Shown piece after piece: positions 448-15,150 of a stretch of 64,000 bases of DNA. Origin of the DNA: Leeia aquatica (GTDB lineage Bacteria; Pseudomonadota; Gammaproteobacteria; Burkholderiales; Leeiaceae). Location: NCBI RefSeq assembly GCF_012641365.1, contig NZ_JABAIM010000001.1, positions 372,001 through 436,000 of the forward strand. Reading direction: 5' to 3'. Both the position numbers and the translations under genes were made by a program. The notes under the pieces are model-generated. The model was given only the letters and a program-made list of their open reading frames with translations, was not told where the DNA came from and searched no databases. Positions within the stretch are counted from its first letter, which is position 1, and each line of letters opens with the position of its first letter.

Positions 448-1236
448 TTAGCCGGAAGAAGTGAGCAGTGTAGCGCAGTCGTCCTGCTTCTGCCCGCCAG
501 ACGGCAGCTGACCCAGAAAGTGCTGTATCGCTACCGCAGCCGCCTCCGGGCAGGTCTGCAGCAAAAAGTGTGGCCCGGCGATCTGCACATGTATCGCCTG
601 TGGCAGGCTTGCACGCAAGCACTGTGTCGTCTTGCGCGGCAGCAGTCGATCAGCGGCAGGATGCAGGCATAGTATGGGTAGCGTCGGTGGCACAGGCGCC
701 GCGCCTTCCCGCTCAACACTGATTGCCCGCAAGCGCTGCAAAATGTGCGCTCTCGGCTGCACGGACCAAGCCGCCTGCAGCCTTTGCCAATACACGCTGG
801 GCAAGCGCCAGGGTGTCGTCAGGAAAAAACGCCCCCAGCGCAAAGGCACACGCTGCAGCGGCAGGCGTGACAGCAAGGGCAGCAGATAGCGCAGGAGTGG
901 CCGGGGTGAGCGGACAAAGGTGGCGCACAGCACCAGTCCCTGCATCCCTGGTGGCGGTTGGCGTGCAATACGCAAGGCCACCGGGCCGGAGAACGATTCC
1001 GCCAGCAGCACAAAGGCTTGATCGGGTAGCTGCGTCCGAACCCATGCCGCCAGGGTGTCATAGTCCCCGGCCAGCTGGGCCGGGTAAGCCAGCACCTGCA
1101 CAGACAGCGATCCGCCCAGCGCACGCAGCAAGGGCTCAAACAGCAAACCGCTGCCATCCAGACCCGGCAATAACACCAATACCACGCCGCCCCCTTCCGC
1201 TGCGGAGGAAACCCTCCCTTGACACCCTCTTGCCAT
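448..1236 (-). CDS. Alpha/beta hydrolase fold protein
   Basis: A 262-residue protein with the alpha/beta-hydrolase layout: a glycine-rich oxyanion segment (LLPGLDGSG) near residue 22, a nucleophile elbow ESFSG at 80-84 with the putative catalytic Ser82, and late acid and histidine candidates (PAADRLLP and AGPHFLLQ). There is no signal peptide, so it is probably a cytoplasmic esterase or related hydrolase; the substrate cannot be read from sequence. The first 17 residues look unlike the fold, and a GTG about 50 bases further in (VVLVLLPGLDG) follows a G-rich stretch, so the true start may be there. It lies directly upstream of the TetR gene at 1-436. Confidence 0.7.
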   Translation of the reverse strand: MARGCQGRVSSAAEGGGVVLVLLPGLDGSGLLFEPLLRALGGSLSVQVLAYPAQLAGDYDTLAAWVRTQLPDQAFVLLAESFSGPVALRIARQPPPGMQGLVLCATFVRSPRPLLRYLLPLLSRLPLQRVPLRWGRFFLTTPWRLPSVYWQRLQAAWSVQPRAHILQRLRAISVEREGAAPVPPTLPILCLHPAADRLLPRKTTQCLRASLPQAIHVQIAGPHFLLQTCPEAAAVAIQHFLGQLPSGGQKQDDCATLLTSSG

Positions 1237-1279
1237 GCAAGGACGATGTCATGATCAATATGCCCGAATGTCATACAGC

Positions 1280-1690
1280 ATGAGCCTGATTTCCCGCCTG
1301 TTCAAGCGCACGCCCCCAGACTTTGCCGTCGGCCAGGTCTGGACTTACCGACACCGTGCCGGAGAGCCCGGCTCGACCCTGCAAATCTGCCAGATCGACC
1401 AGGATGCACGGTTGGGGCGTATTTTCCATATCGGGGTACAGCGCGTACGCATCCCCACACCGGGTGGTGGTCTATGCGAAAACATGCCTCACCTGCCCGT
1501 ATCGCTGGAAACCCTGCAACAGAGTGTCACAGCCTGGCAGCGGGATGCCCCAGTGCCGGATGACTACCGTGAAGGCTATCAAATCTGGCGCGACGCCTTT
1601 GATCGGGGTGAGGCGGGCATTTTCACGATTCCGGTCGCTGACATTCTGGATGTTACGGCCCGCATGGCTGAGCAAGGTCAACCCGCGTGA
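1280..1690 (+). CDS. Conserved hypothetical protein, 136 aa
   Basis: I do not recognise the family. The protein is soluble and compact, begins MSLISRLFKRTPPDFAVGQVW, and has no signal peptide or membrane segment. The start at 1280 puts the gene after the divergently read hydrolase; an in-frame ATG at 1268 is also possible. Its last codon overlaps the GTG start of the next gene at 1687, so the three genes at 1280-2582 probably form one small operon. No catalytic motif is visible, and I assign no function. Confidence 0.6.
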   Translation: MSLISRLFKRTPPDFAVGQVWTYRHRAGEPGSTLQICQIDQDARLGRIFHIGVQRVRIPTPGGGLCENMPHLPVSLETLQQSVTAWQRDAPVPDDYREGYQIWRDAFDRGEAGIFTIPVADILDVTARMAEQGQPA

Positions 1691-2163
1691 AGCCGATCCT
1701 GCTGCTGGCCCTGCTGACGCTGGCCGGTACGGCAGCACGAGCCCATCCACAGTTCGGTCTGGCTGCGCTGTCCCCGGATGGCAGCTGCGCCGCCTTTGCC
1801 ACGCCCTTGCCGCCGCAGGTCAAGCGCTTGCGCATGACACAATTGGATACAGCACATCGCCGCCAGTCGCAATGGGTCAGGCTGGGGCCCATGACAGATC
1901 AGCCCTGCCCTGCTGCGCAGGCGGCCATGCTGGAAGGTGCGGCTTATTATCCGCTGCAGCTGCCCAAGGCCGTACAGGCACTGAACTATCAGGTGGTCTA
2001 TACCGATACGCCGTCTTCCATGCCCCACGTACGCGTTTGCAGCAGCCAGGAAGGCCTCTGGTTCTCGGCTTGGTCGGCAAAAGGCCGTAACCGGCTCTGG
2101 CATGCCTATGCCTATTTGGGCTATGACGTACAGCCGAACTGCACGGTTGAGGAAACCGAATGA
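1687..2163 (+). CDS. Hypothetical secreted protein, 158 aa
   Basis: Starts at a GTG that overlaps the stop of the preceding gene. The N-terminus (MKPILLLALLTLAGTAARAH) is a good Sec signal peptide with cleavage after ARA, so the mature protein should be periplasmic. The mature part contains four cysteines (SPDGSC, QPCPA, VRVCSS, PNCTV), suggesting disulfides. No known domain is recognised. It overlaps the next gene by an ATGA junction, which suggests translational coupling. Confidence 0.6.
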   Translation: MKPILLLALLTLAGTAARAHPQFGLAALSPDGSCAAFATPLPPQVKRLRMTQLDTAHRRQSQWVRLGPMTDQPCPAAQAAMLEGAAYYPLQLPKAVQALNYQVVYTDTPSSMPHVRVCSSQEGLWFSAWSAKGRNRLWHAYAYLGYDVQPNCTVEETE

Positions 2164-2582
2164 TGCGCCGCTCGTTGCTGGCCGCCTTGCTGTTGCTCAC
2201 CAGCCTGGGCAGTCTGGCGCATAGCCCATGCCCGCCCCCCACCCTCTTTCAACCACAGGTCAAGCAACACTTTGAGCAGGGGCAGCTCACTGCCCTGCTG
2301 GATCGTGCACAGCCGGTCACCGTTGTGCTGGACAATGAATATGATGAGCAGACACCCCGTCGTCGCCTGCACTTTTCCCCTGCCGAGGCACGCCGCTGGC
2401 TGGATGCGCAACTGAGCGGCAGTGAAACCCGACTTGTCCCTGAGCCGGTGCATTGCAATCAGCGCGGGTGCCGCTATACCGCGCCCGAACTGACGGTACA
2501 CCACGCGGTGTATCTACTGGGCTGGCAATACACGGCAGGGCGTTGTCCCCGCCTGAATCTGGTGCACCTTATGCTGGGATGA
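2160..2582 (+). CDS. Hypothetical secreted protein, 140 aa
   Basis: Begins with a signal peptide (MRRSLLAALLLLTSLGSLAH), so the product is predicted to be exported. Mature cysteines occur in SPCPPPT, HCNQRGCRY and GRCPRL, a pattern that fits periplasmic disulfides. Its start overlaps the stop of the preceding secreted protein (ATGA), so both are probably made together. The role is unknown; the family is not recognised. Confidence 0.6.
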   Translation: MMRRSLLAALLLLTSLGSLAHSPCPPPTLFQPQVKQHFEQGQLTALLDRAQPVTVVLDNEYDEQTPRRRLHFSPAEARRWLDAQLSGSETRLVPEPVHCNQRGCRYTAPELTVHHAVYLLGWQYTAGRCPRLNLVHLMLG

Positions 2583-2604
2583 ACAAAAATTGCGCTTGCA
2601 ATTT

Positions 2605-2638
2605 ATTGAACGTCGTATAAAAATGCACACCGTTCAAT
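2605..2638. promoter_or_regulatory. Inverted repeat upstream of tetR, candidate operator
   Basis: ATTGAACG at 2605-2612 and its exact complement CGTTCAAT at 2631-2638 flank an AT-rich TATAAA (2616-2621) that could serve as a -10 element. The repeat ends 15 bases before the TetR start codon, where an autoregulatory TetR operator would be expected. The 18-base spacing between arms is long for one TetR dimer, so this could also be two half-sites. Confidence 0.45.
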
Positions 2639-2653
2639 TTAAAGGTGTGCAGC

Positions 2654-3250
2654 ATGGATGCGCCAGGTCGTCGGGAACGCAAGCAGCAAGAATCCGCTCA
2701 GCATATTGCGGAAGTCGCCATGACCCTCTTCGGGCAACATGGCTATGACGCGGTCAGCATGGAGGATATTGCCCGTGAAGCGGATGTCGCCAAAGGCACC
2801 TTGTACAAGCGCTTTCCGGTCAAGGAGGCCATCCTGGCCCATCATTTCCAGCAAGACCTGCAACAGCTGCAACCCCTGATTCAGCAGAGCCTGCGAAACG
2901 AGCCGGACTGCCCAAGCCGCCTTCGCGCCTATTTCCGCCAGGCAGCCCTGTGGAGCCAGCGCCACCGCGCTTACCTGCGCCCCTGGCTGGCCTATCGCTA
3001 TGCACGTGCGTTTGATCCCGACGTCCCCAGAAGCGGCGCCGGTCAGGCTCTGGCGGCCTTGCTGGCCGAAGGCGTACGCTGTGGCGAGATCCGTAACGAT
3101 ATTCCGCTGGAAGAGTTGCTGCTGGGTCTGGAGTATCTGCACTCCAGCGCCCTAATGCGCTGGCTGTCCAATGAGCAGGTGGACCTGGGCCAAAGCCTGG
3201 ACCATATGCTGACCCTGTTTCTGCAAGGCTCGGAGCACCCATCATGCTGA
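2654..3250 (+). CDS. TetR/AcrR-family regulator of the downstream PEP-utilising enzyme
   Basis: 198 residues with a clear TetR N-terminal DNA-binding domain at about residues 8-55 (ESAQHIAEVAMTLFGQHGYD, then DIAREADVAKGTLYKRF). The ATG at 2654 follows AAAGGTG with 6 bases between. The C-terminal part is helical, as expected for ligand binding and dimerisation. The stop overlaps the start of the 847-residue enzyme by 7 bases, so regulator and enzyme are translationally coupled. An inverted repeat sits in the promoter region. By family behaviour it probably represses its own operon; the inducer is unknown. Confidence 0.85.
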   Translation: MDAPGRRERKQQESAQHIAEVAMTLFGQHGYDAVSMEDIAREADVAKGTLYKRFPVKEAILAHHFQQDLQQLQPLIQQSLRNEPDCPSRLRAYFRQAALWSQRHRAYLRPWLAYRYARAFDPDVPRSGAGQALAALLAEGVRCGEIRNDIPLEELLLGLEYLHSSALMRWLSNEQVDLGQSLDHMLTLFLQGSEHPSC

Positions 3251-13046: not shown

Positions 13047-13307
13047 ATGAATCTACCCCTTCGTAACTCGGGCGCCGTACTGGCTTTGGCGGCAGCCGCA
13101 TTGCTGGCCGGTTGCAGCAGCATGGGCAATGCAGACAAGATGAGCAGTGCCGACAAGGTGATGTGCAGCGGCGTCAACAGCTGCAAGGGTACGTCGGAAT
13201 GCAAGACCGCCAGCAGCGCCTGCAAGGGTCAGAACAGCTGCAAGGGGCAAGGCTGGCTGTCAATGAGCGCCGCAGAATGCAGCAAGGCCGGTGGCAAGGC
13301 GATGTAA
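13047..13307 (+). CDS. Cys-rich lipoprotein, bufferin (BufA2)-like
   Basis: 86 residues with a lipoprotein signal (lipobox LLAGC, Cys23) followed by six cysteines at 40, 46, 52, 59, 65 and 78, in a repeated pattern: CSGVNSCKG, then CKGQNSCKGQGW. This resembles the small periplasmic copper-binding bufferins of the BufA2 type, which are usually exported soluble peptides; the lipobox and the absence of a neighbouring bufB/bufC pair are unusual. ACTCAGGAGACACAAC upstream gives a good ribosome site. A metal-binding role is inferred from the Cys pattern. Confidence 0.65.
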   Translation: MNLPLRNSGAVLALAAAALLAGCSSMGNADKMSSADKVMCSGVNSCKGTSECKTASSACKGQNSCKGQGWLSMSAAECSKAGGKAM

Positions 13308-13525
13308 TTCCGCCCGCGCCAAAAGCAACAGGGCGGGAAATCCCGCCCTGTGTCCTCTTCATCCTCCCACCGGCCTTTCGGCCCTTCACGCAGTTCACGC
13401 TGTAATTGTTGCCGCGCTTGCTGCCGCTTGGCTTTCTCGCTGTTGCCATGCGCCCCGGCATGACGCTGCCGGGCTGCCAGTGCCAGCGCATTGCGTGGCA
13501 CCAGGGTTTTTCCTCTTTGCTTCAT
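13229..13525 (-). CDS. Possible small basic protein downstream of rtcB
   Basis: The ATG at 13525 is preceded by AAGGAG with 8 bases spacing and lies 67 bases after rtcB on the same strand. The first 50 residues are strongly basic and helical (MKQRGKTLVPRNALALAARQ, then KAKRQQARQQLQRELRE), resembling small RNP-rich basic proteins common in proteobacteria. The frame runs through a strong hairpin at 13329-13350 and into the antisense of the lipoprotein gene before stopping at 13229, which is odd for a real gene. Only the N-terminal half looks protein-like. Confidence 0.4.
   Translation of the reverse strand: MKQRGKTLVPRNALALAARQRHAGAHGNSEKAKRQQARQQLQRELREGPKGRWEDEEDTGRDFPPCCFWRGRNYIALPPALLHSAALIDSQPCPLQLF
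13329..13350. terminator. Bidirectional hairpin terminator
   Basis: CAGGGCGGGA and TCCCGCCCTG form a 10-bp perfect stem between the lipoprotein gene (plus strand) and the rtcB side (minus strand). On the minus strand it is followed by TTGCTTTT, so it can act as the terminator for the rtcB transcript. Confidence 0.6.
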
Positions 13526-13592
13526 GATGACGGCTCCTTGATTCAAATCTTGATTTGAGATTGGGGGGAGCCTCCGCTCCCCCGCAGGCGGT

Positions 13593-14801
13593 TCAGCCCT
13601 TGATGCACAGCACTTGTTTCAGGGTATGGACCACTTCCACCAGATCGGTCTGGTGTGACATCACCTGGTCGATATCCTTGTACGCACCGGGAATCTCGTC
13701 CAGCACGCCACGGTCCTTGCGGCACTCCACACCGGCGGTTTGCAGCTCCAGGTCATGCCGGGTAAAACGTCGCCGCGCGTCCGTCCGGCTCATCACGCGG
13801 CCCGCGCCATGCGAGCAGGAGCAGAATGATTGCGCATTGCCCAGCCCACGCACGATGAAACTGCGCGCCCCCATGCTGCCGGGGATAATGCCCAGCTCTC
13901 CCTGCCCGGCGCGAATAGCACCTTTGCGGGTGATGTACAGCGATTGCCCGAAGTGTGTTTCTTCCTGCACATAGTTGTGGTGGCAGTTGATGGCCTCGCC
14001 ATCCAGCCCAAAGGCGGGCAGCAAGGGCCGTATGGCGGACACCACCAGCTCCATCATGGTGCGCCGGTTGAGCAAGGCGTAATCCTGTGCCCAGTTCAGC
14101 GCCTCCACATAGTCATCAAACCACTCACTGCCTTCTTGCAGATAGGCGAGGTCGATGTCTGGCAGATGAATCTGATGGCGACGCATTTCCTTGCGGGCCG
14201 CGTCGATGAAATAGCGCCCCATGACATTACCGATGCCCCGGCTGCCTGAGTGCAGCATCACCCACACCCGTTGTTCTTCGTCCAGGCACAGCTCGATGAA
14301 GTGGTTGCCACCGCCCAGCGTGCCCATCTGGCAACGCCAGGTCTGGGCAAACTTGCGCTGCATCTTCATCAGCCCCGGATGCTTGCCGACAATGACATCC
14401 AGCCGCGCATCCAGCGGACGGCTGATACGGGCAAACGCGCTGCCGCGTACTTTGCTGGCTTCGTGCTGGTTGAACCCCACCGGCACACTGGCTTCGATAC
14501 TGCTGCGCAAGCGGAGCAGATTGTCAGGCAGGTCTGACGCCGTCAGCGTGGTACGAATGGCGTTCATGCCGCAACCGATATCCACCCCGACAGCCGCCGG
14601 AATGATGGCGCCCTTGGTGGGAATCACACTGCCCACGGTGGCGCCGATACCAGCATGGACATCCGGCATGGCCGCGATATGGCCATGTACGATGGGGAGT
14701 TGTGCCACATTGACCAGCTGCTGCATGGCCTGTGGCTCGATCTGGTCCGTCCAGATCTTGACCGGAACCCGGCCTTTATTGAGGGTAAGCAAAATGCCCA
14801 T
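13593..14801 (-). CDS. rtcB: RNA-splicing ligase RtcB
   Basis: 402 residues, close to the 408 of E. coli RtcB. The metal-binding Cys77 lies in GVDIGCGMN, GNHFIEL and HSGSRGIG are conserved, and the guanylylated histidine lies in SCSHGAGRVMSR. The enzyme joins 2',3'-cyclic phosphate or 3'-phosphate RNA to 5'-OH ends with GTP and Mn2+, in RNA repair. No RtcA, RtcR or archease gene is next to it. A GGAAGA ribosome site lies 6 bases before the ATG, immediately after a strong terminator-like hairpin, so expression probably depends on read-through of the leader. Confidence 0.95.
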   Translation of the reverse strand: MGILLTLNKGRVPVKIWTDQIEPQAMQQLVNVAQLPIVHGHIAAMPDVHAGIGATVGSVIPTKGAIIPAAVGVDIGCGMNAIRTTLTASDLPDNLLRLRSSIEASVPVGFNQHEASKVRGSAFARISRPLDARLDVIVGKHPGLMKMQRKFAQTWRCQMGTLGGGNHFIELCLDEEQRVWVMLHSGSRGIGNVMGRYFIDAARKEMRRHQIHLPDIDLAYLQEGSEWFDDYVEALNWAQDYALLNRRTMMELVVSAIRPLLPAFGLDGEAINCHHNYVQEETHFGQSLYITRKGAIRAGQGELGIIPGSMGARSFIVRGLGNAQSFCSCSHGAGRVMSRTDARRRFTRHDLELQTAGVECRKDRGVLDEIPGAYKDIDQVMSHQTDLVEVVHTLKQVLCIKG

Positions 14802-14818
14802 GTTGAATCTTCCAATGC

Positions 14819-14908
14819 AAAACGCCCCGGGTAAGCCGGGGCGTGCAAGGAAGCGCGTCGTCTACCTGGCCTCGGCGGATCATGAACAAACCGATCCAAC
14901 CCGGGGCG
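14819..14908 (-). promoter_or_regulatory. Attenuator-like leader of rtcB: terminator with a competing upstream arm
   Basis: On the minus strand ACGCCCCGG (14844-14836) pairs with CCGGGGCGT (14830-14822), followed by TTTT: an intrinsic terminator ending about 8 bases before the rtcB ribosome site. An upstream copy, CGCCCCGGG (14908-14900), is a perfect 9-bp partner for the same 3' arm (CCCGGGGCG, 14831-14823), so the two pairings exclude each other. The upstream copy lies inside a CCGATC/GATCGG hairpin loop. This is a terminator/antiterminator layout; the signal is unknown. Confidence 0.6.
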
Positions 14909-14924
14909 AAGACTGGGAGATCGG

Positions 14925-14954
14925 TTACTGGGTCAAGCCTTTCTGCGTCGTCAT
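14925..14954 (-). CDS. Possible rtcB leader peptide, 9 aa
   Basis: A 9-codon frame, MTTQKGLTQ, begins at 14954 with AAAGGAG placed 7 bases upstream, a textbook ribosome site, and stops at 14925. The stop is 16 bases before the upstream 9-mer that competes in the rtcB terminator. A ribosome loading or stopping here could change which hairpin forms. It is too short to be judged by codon use; the evidence is the ribosome site and position. Confidence 0.45.
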   Translation of the reverse strand: MTTQKGLTQ

Positions 14955-15150
14955 CGATACTCTCCTTTCTGGGTTGACGTACTACACATCCAACAATGCG
15001 GCGCAGTCTGCCGCAGTCGACTGGGCAGCGTCAATGGTGTGCGCTAAGCAAAGTGCAACCATTACGCAACAGTGTATCTTTATGGCAACAAATCATTCCT
15101 TGACCCCGGCTTGATACCCTCGTCAAAAAGGCGGAGAATGCGCTGCAAGT

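Follow-up and report, generated by a model that had tools for sequence, protein, structure and literature searches.

In a 64,000-nt stretch of the Leeia aquatica genome (contig NZ_JABAIM010000001.1, positions 372,001 to 436,000; hereafter the window), the RNA ligase gene rtcB is preceded on the minus strand by a short leader open reading frame (ORF) and an intrinsic terminator, and the presence of the two before rtcB is not a matter of chance. Judging from the sequence and from folding models, we consider it quite likely that this region is a ribosome-mediated transcription attenuator. The arrangement is common to many proteobacteria and probably restricts synthesis of the ligase to times of ribosomal trouble. 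The positions given for the leader ORF, a 9-mer behind it, the terminator and rtcB in a sequence-only reading that preceded this analysis proved exact to the base when read again (Table 1). The 9-mer CGCCCCGGG is fully complementary to CCCGGGGCG (14831-14823) on the 3' side of the terminator. The upstream gene, nadA, lies on the plus strand and diverges from rtcB; since it points away, transcription of rtcB should begin in the shared intergenic stretch and cross the leader, unless it starts within the leader. In a plain minimum-free-energy fold the whole leader stretch has an ordinary stability (z -0.72), and the terminator found by pattern scan is by itself at chance level (1 found, 0.6 expected). 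The case therefore depends chiefly on the way these elements are arranged and on the finding of the same layout in relatives.

In order to follow this recurrence, we compared the best 80 of 590 confirmed named relatives and the closest from 399 genomes of the order (30 loci sought). After removal of five duplicates, the set comprised 92 branch loci, including the window, and 15 other rtcB genes, a split made by source and similarity rank and set after the upstream sequences had been seen. The relatives are not independent, and Fisher p-values were therefore not used. A basic test, which asked for a Shine-Dalgarno (SD) sequence, an ORF of 5-25 codons and an intrinsic terminator hairpin of -8 kcal/mol or lower within 350 nt, found all three in 56 of the 92 branch loci vs 1 of the 15 other genes. 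By a strict test (ATG leader of 8-16 codons, terminator 40-100 nt past the stop codon), the layout was present in 47/90 scorable branch loci, the window included, in 0/14 other rtcB genes and in 0/261 other ORFs of the same loci, or in 47/104 when all rtcB genes were pooled; L073 and L079 (92 to 90) and L111 (15 to 14) had too little upstream sequence to be scored. The terminator alone was found by the same test in 79 of the 261 other upstream regions. The leader-peptide attenuator proposed for the window in the sequence-only reading thus gains support from the recurrence of the joint layout. In L041, L060, L066, L089 and L095 the detector overlooked what by eye seem to be real leaders, and these are left out of the counts. 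We also sampled 60 genomes of Acinetobacter, the genus of L083; an rtcB match was present in 28, and 26 of the 27 leader-type loci carry the leader.

The 53 leaders passing the spacing rule encode 51 distinct peptides of 8-16 codons (median 11), in which N, Q, T and A are the commonest residues and the longest run, of three, occurs once. The three stop codons are used almost equally (19, 19 and 15), and the distance from stop codon to terminator has a median of 61 with quartiles of 57-67. A peptide that is free to change within a fixed architecture fits a reader of ribosome occupancy rather than of one amino acid. Promoter-like pairs ahead of the same 53 leaders, window included, scored above shuffled sequence (mean best score 12.5 vs 8.7, sd 0.19); in the relatives they often consist of TTGACA and a -10 box about 40-70 nt ahead of the leader ATG.

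Covariation in related genomes had been named as a check on the attenuator, and it was found in two groups of relatives. The first, A1, is an alignment of 15 leaders, all from Oxalobacteraceae or closely related bacteria (L041 and the ends of L009 were placed by hand). Here the region of the leader SD and start codon pairs with an arm just ahead of the terminator, a second helix inside the ORF covers the stop codon, and two arms, CTCGGGG and CGAGCCGG, do not vary. In this alignment 94.3% of the cells are paired, with a covariation score of 0.231 vs 0.149 +/- 0.013 in shuffles (0/500 as high), and versions in which the arms were slid scored worse. In the second group, A2, which contains 26 Acinetobacter leaders, the partner of the SD/start region is a segment a short way past the stop codon, and each SD arm binds its own partner better than a swapped one (-17.9 vs -14.9 kcal/mol; 0/5000 permutations, likewise when each distinct SD arm was entered once). 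Partner swapping in A1 gave 0/5000 permutations, or 2/5000 when duplicate SD arms were reduced to a single row. For the 53 loci together the mean energy of downstream pairing of the SD was -12.5 vs -10.3 +/- 0.29 in shuffled sequence; 15/53 loci individually reach the 5% level, and the window is not one of them. Two features recur in the relatives: the leader SD pairs with a downstream arm and, as described below, the terminator 5' arm pairs with RNA that lies upstream of it. By eye, a TTCGGAC-like stretch past the terminator could in most Acinetobacter copies bind the invariant GTCCGAAT that precedes the terminator, which would be a possible extra switch in the read-through RNA.

Folding with a ribosome placed at different positions gave, for the full-length leader RNA of the window, ensemble probabilities of terminator formation of 0.80 with the ribosome at the leader stop codon, 0.11 with it at the start and 0.01 with none. 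When the region from leader stop to terminator was shuffled, 0/300 versions were as low without a ribosome or with one at the start, and none had as large a stop-minus-start difference. In transcripts cut ahead of the terminator 3' arm, the probability that the 5' arm is paired upstream was 0.67 in the window with the ribosome at the start and 0.19 with it at the stop. Averaged over the 53 loci the corresponding values were 0.62 and 0.35, with 0.39 for no ribosome; the start value exceeded the stop value by >0.1 in 34/53 loci, and the reverse held in 7. The mean start-minus-stop difference was 0.277, and shuffling from stop codon to terminator lowered it to 0.021 +/- 0.016 (largest of 20 rounds 0.051). 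It changed little with the footprint chosen (five choices, 0.246 to 0.294). With the Oxalobacteraceae-type group set aside, the remaining 39 loci gave 0.152 vs 0.019 +/- 0.020 in shuffles. The automatic choice of terminator is doubtful in L009, L050, L063, L091 and L093, which have low probabilities in every state and were kept in the averages. A ribosome parked at the leader start is thus predicted to favour the antiterminator on average over the loci, although not in every test, and control by translation state, as suggested earlier, is plausible; RNA damage was the other candidate signal named there. The competition for the terminator 3' arm suggested in the sequence-only reading stands out in the window but is not a general feature: in folds of the full leader, the terminators of the relatives form wherever the ribosome is placed. 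Since those terminators form in nearly all full-length states, any switching in the relatives must be kinetic, with the 5' arm captured before the 3' arm is made.

In the mechanism that we propose, a housekeeping promoter would transcribe the leader constitutively. When the leader ORF is translated through to its stop codon, the terminator would form and transcription would end after roughly 150-190 nt, giving a short RNA only. If ribosomes load but stall, as under tetracycline-class drugs or other damage to translation, one of them at the leader start would cover the SD, and the downstream arm that otherwise pairs with the SD would be set free. The RNA would then refold so that upstream segments capture the terminator arms, and the polymerase would go on into rtcB, and perhaps also into the small ORF that follows. 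As the leader peptide has no specific sequence, the device would sense the progress of the ribosome and not one amino acid. The anatomy, the recurrence and the covariation in two groups of relatives are observed, and switching is a model prediction on average; transcription of the window copy from the pair at 15034-15005, its response to drugs and the order of refolding are what we infer beyond them.

Table 1. Features of the rtcB leader and the genes that follow it, in window coordinates
Feature	Positions	Strand	Details
Candidate housekeeping promoter	15005..15034	-	TTGACG 15034-15029, 18 nt, CAGACT 15010-15005; leader ATG 50 nt downstream
Leader SD	14961..14968	-	AAAGGAGA; AAGGAG, spacing 7 nt
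Segment 1, SD/start region, partner of segment 2	14955..14965	-	Duplex -10.7 kcal/mol; helix at a similar place covaries in Acinetobacter
Leader ORF, 9 codons, MTTQKGLTQ*	14925..14954	-	ATG 14954, TAA 14927-14925
Segment 2 CCGATCTCCC, directly after stop codon	14915..14924	-	Predicted partner segment 1 or segment 3 (sequence and folds)
9-mer CGCCCCGGG	14900..14908	-	Near-copy of terminator 5' arm, putative competitor for 3' arm
Segment 3 GGATCGG	14891..14897	-	Predicted partner segment 2 or segment 4 (sequence and fold)
Segment 4 GATCC + GCCGAGGC	14869..14881	-	Possible pairing with terminator 5' arm as antiterminator (folds)
Intrinsic terminator	14819..14844	-	9-bp stem, 5-nt loop, TTTT 14822-14819; -18.1 kcal/mol
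Terminator arms	ACGCCCCGG 14844-14836, CCGGGGCGT 14830-14822	-	From sequence
rtcB SD GGAAGA	14808..14813	-	From sequence
rtcB, 402-aa RNA ligase	13593..14801	-	PF01139, 440 bits; outside PrfH-linked RtcB2 (TIGR03073)
Small basic ORF behind rtcB, motif PRNxxAxAAxxRxAGxH	13229..13525	-	Possibly cotranscribed with rtcB

Acinetobacter is the only genus of the branch for which experimental data were found. The Rfam family AbsR28 (RF02606) matches Acinetobacter L083 at 2798-2974, and rtcB starts there at 3001. The published AbsR28 probe (70 letters after dropping an 8-letter shared end) is found exactly in L154 and L159, where it ends 105 nt before the rtcB ATG, and it contains an SD and the 9-codon ORF MPTLQGKTQ. 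Taken by this sequence and position, AbsR28 is the leader of rtcB in Acinetobacter. It stands in the same place before the same rtcB branch and has the SD, 9-codon ORF and terminator of the leader, but it was published as a stand-alone small RNA (sRNA) and the window region misses its model (no match up to E 5). No Rfam family could be assigned to the window region, as its three matches were all far under threshold, and in 15 relatives searched with Rfam no leader match was obtained besides that in L083. AbsR28 is reported as an RNA of ~180 nt by Northern blotting and rapid amplification of cDNA ends in the growth phases tested, and as adjoining a lysine permease gene (PMC3976366); the L148 leader adjoins a gene that we read by eye as an amino-acid permease. 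The terminated short RNA that the sequence-only reading had set out as something to look for is thus already published for this genus. In Acinetobacter baumannii treated with tigecycline, rtcB and the next gene downstream are reported to rise 252-fold, the largest rise of that study (PMC7652931), and minocycline is reported to raise an RtcB-family gene 2.6-fold (PMC9741440). Many Acinetobacter genomes carry a second, less similar rtcB. Gene order supports the view that the tigecycline-induced gene is the copy behind AbsR28, and AB57_3343 may be the small basic ORF behind rtcB. A literature search, with subscription papers and preprints outside its scope, returned no paper joining AbsR28 and rtcB.

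The leader-bearing rtcB of the window is not the only one in this genome. A second rtcB lies about 1.2 Mb away, encodes a protein 57% identical to the window RtcB, and has a divergent rtcR beside it and the sigma54-type box TGGCACGGGCTTTGC (TGGCACG-N4-TTGC) upstream. In E. coli, rtcBA is under RtcR/sigma54 control. Neither an adjacent rtcR nor a -24/-12 box was found at the window rtcB, and RtcR/sigma54 control of this copy was rejected, both features being confined to the other one. The earlier remark that no rtcR is nearby holds for the window copy, but the genome does have an rtcR beside its second rtcB. The RtcR/sigma54 system governs an rtcB, here probably the second copy, and differs from the window locus, which has neither rtcR nor sigma54 box. 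In L008 an rtcR homologue (1057-2646, plus strand; 71% identical over 529 residues) lies directly upstream of, and codirectional with, the leader and rtcB, so both types of control may meet at one locus. Near the other 91 branch loci no rtcR was seen within the stretches available, which span about 1.5 kb per side for loci from the genome search and are short for some others. Among the 15 other rtcB genes an rtcR or sigma54-type box was seen, in the available stretches, in L005 only; 'RtcR-type', as applied to this group, is a label that was not established gene by gene.

Several results weigh against an attenuator, in the window or as a general device. In the window, the U-run after the terminator is short (TTTTGC), the promoter pair is weak alone (7/60 shuffles equal or better), and the SD helix is unexceptional alone (0.47 of shuffles as low). 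With the ribosome at the stop codon the single best window structure still pairs the 9-mer with the 3' arm, and the difference in upstream pairing of the 5' arm was reached by 5.7% of 300 shuffles and is not significant alone. The local 9-bp hairpin may outpace its distant competitor, whatever the equilibrium says. Among the 92 branch loci, 45 did not show the strict layout (43 missed, 2 too short), and no leader was found in any of nine Psychrobacter loci, of which L073 and L079 are the two with little upstream sequence. In full-length folds of the 53 loci the mean terminator probability is 0.87, 0.87 and 0.86 whatever the state of the ribosome, and the stop value exceeds the start value by >0.1 in 2/53 (the window and L025), with the reverse in 3. 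In Acinetobacter, the genus with experimental data, the truncated nested folds show no dependence on ribosome position (mean start-minus-stop 0.02), and the link between the induced rtcB and AbsR28 depends on gene order and on matching sequence in genomes of the genus. L008, finally, indicates that leader and RtcR are not always separate.

The best surviving alternative, to which we nevertheless give little probability, is that the leader forms an independent sRNA gene, acting in trans and ending in a terminator of its own, and that rtcB is controlled otherwise. AbsR28 has been described in these terms: it is reported as a discrete 180-nt RNA (PMC3976366), the annotation of another strain lists it as an sRNA of 203 nt (PMC5320573), and it is reported to pair with tssM mRNA in an Mn2+-dependent manner, the support being a compensatory mutant, binding of Mn2+ and the phenotype of a knockout (PMC11796373). 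Against this stand the occurrence of the leader directly before one rtcB branch across many families, the retention of SD, start and stop codon while the peptide drifts, and the extension of the reported drug induction to rtcB itself (PMC7652931). In addition, the reported seed A27GGA30 may be the leader's own SD, a guess made from the probe sequence. AbsR28 can be an sRNA and an rtcB leader at once. If the attenuator is real, AbsR28 would be recast as an mRNA leader, and deleting absR28 could also remove the leader and disturb the control of rtcB, so that phenotypes ascribed to the sRNA (PMC11796373) may include altered RtcB.

Slighter still is the likelihood that the terminator merely damps rtcB expression or insulates the gene from upstream transcription, with no role for the short ORF. 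The frequency of lone terminators in other upstream regions (79/261) and the weak leader promoter of the window agree with it. The joint layout (47/90 vs 0/261), the covariation of the SD helix in two groups of relatives and, in the window, the orientation of nadA away from rtcB argue for the attenuator instead.

RtcB ligases use Mn2+, and a riboswitch or other Mn2+-responsive leader would bind the metal that the enzyme requires, its short ORF being incidental. AbsR28 is reported to bind Mn2+ by isothermal titration calorimetry, with a shifted lead-probing pattern (PMC11796373). No aptamer-like core common to the clades was seen, what they share being the ORF, its SD helix and the terminator; none of the Rfam riboswitches matched the window region or the 15 relatives; and the inducers reported are translation inhibitors (PMC7652931, PMC9741440). 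We regard this explanation as very improbable. Attenuation specific to an amino acid or a peptide (trp-like codon runs or an arrest peptide) shares the layout of classical leader-peptide attenuators, and Gln3 and Phe4 of PA5471.1 are reported to matter in a Pseudomonas aeruginosa cca mutant (PMC13041342), but it is hardly credible here, with 51 distinct peptides among 53, no residue occurring more than three times in 51/53 and no shared motif seen; amino-acid attenuation was rejected, no runs of regulatory codons being present in the 53 peptides or in MTTQKGLTQ.

The proposed translation-responsive attenuator is of a kind that is already known, namely leader-peptide attenuation, and has an RtcB-family precedent in armZ. 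In P. aeruginosa, according to three reports (PMC12057347, PMC13041342, PMC3516279), the 13-codon leader ORF PA5471.1 lies upstream of the RtcB-family gene armZ, the leader is transcribed constitutively, and an early stop or ribosome-targeting drugs lead to read-through. The sequence-only reading was not aware of a described rtcB attenuator of this form; armZ (PMC12057347, PMC13041342) contradicts it on this point, though within another subfamily. The two systems share a short leader ORF before an RtcB-family gene and, as proposed here, the logic of read-through. They differ in RtcB subfamily, in the position of the leader (~250 bp upstream there, 153 nt here), and in the gene that follows, since a predicted release factor, PA5470, comes next after armZ and none was found behind the window rtcB. 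From this release-factor neighbour we infer that ArmZ belongs with the PrfH-linked RtcB2 proteins. In the literature search described above, rtcB leader-peptide attenuation was met only in the MexXY/armZ context; among the titles listed, other papers that mention rtcB and an attenuator mostly concern IRE1 and ER stress in eukaryotes. As far as our searches show, what is new is the place of the leader on a different and widely distributed rtcB lineage, a covarying helix that uses the leader SD, and the identity of AbsR28 as a leader. Attenuators of the trp type likewise have a leader ORF, mutually exclusive helices and an intrinsic terminator; they differ in that the present leaders have no regulatory codon runs and use the leader SD itself as a pairing arm. 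By eye, leader-like ORFs (MKNTLLPFADLFS and MQQLHLQYLFGI) were also seen upstream of the TIGR03073 rtcB2 genes L115 and L119 (2/5 TIGR03073 loci), and in L115 a long stretch closer to the gene is complementary to the ORF end GCAGATCTTTTTAGC. From these two ORFs, the leader theme may span both RtcB subfamilies.

If the proposed mechanism is right, a conserved translation-responsive attenuator would tell when this ligase is needed, which is upon ribosome failure. It could explain the reported 252-fold tigecycline induction of A. baumannii rtcB (PMC7652931), and the drug-sensing armZ attenuator would become one case of a wider RtcB theme. A more ambitious version, which we put forward tentatively and think rather unlikely, would make the leader a widespread sensor of ribosome integrity. 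Its SD arm would do the sensing, and ribosomes that are stalled, or that lack the anti-SD through a cut at the 16S 3' end, would fail on the leader and so call up a ligase able to re-seal ribosomal RNA. RtcB is reported to re-ligate MazF-cut 16S ribosomal RNA in E. coli. Such a repair feedback loop would be independent of RtcR in most lineages and old in beta- and gammaproteobacteria, with AbsR28 as its by-product.

Assignment of the window RtcB to the PrfH-linked RtcB2 family (TIGR03073) was rejected, as it scored 147.9 bits vs a cut-off of 271.8; it shares 28-31% identity with four members, and in the tree five members form a very distant clade on a very long branch from it. The tree has two large branches, a mostly betaproteobacterial one and a gammaproteobacterial one, and leaders were detected in each. 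The other rtcB genes L004, L005, L113 and L114 nest within the gammaproteobacterial branch, so that leader-bearing rtcB is not one clean clade. In several gammaproteobacteria without a detected leader, another gene seems by eye to reach rtcB. At L047, L049 and L061, all without a detected leader, the ORF upstream of rtcB has an end that by eye resembles ribosome-binding factor A.

No prfH-like gene lies behind the window rtcB, where the ORFs at 13047-13593 are the small basic ORF and then, beyond the end of rtcB on the opposite strand, a BufA2-family gene for a bufferin-type metallophore (13047-13307, plus strand). The small basic ORF gave no convincing Pfam or NCBIfam match; its motif follows rtcB in 21/107 loci, including the window, and also in L148 (1261-1103). 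Its product is a possible partner of RtcB. A different, conserved protein of ~320-355 aa was seen behind rtcB in an 18-locus cluster (L006, L008, L010, L013, L039, L050, L074, L090, L096 and others); the L039 copy, the only one searched, had no Pfam or NCBIfam match. In L051, L055 and L059 a protein end similar to that of this family is visible by eye upstream of rtcB.

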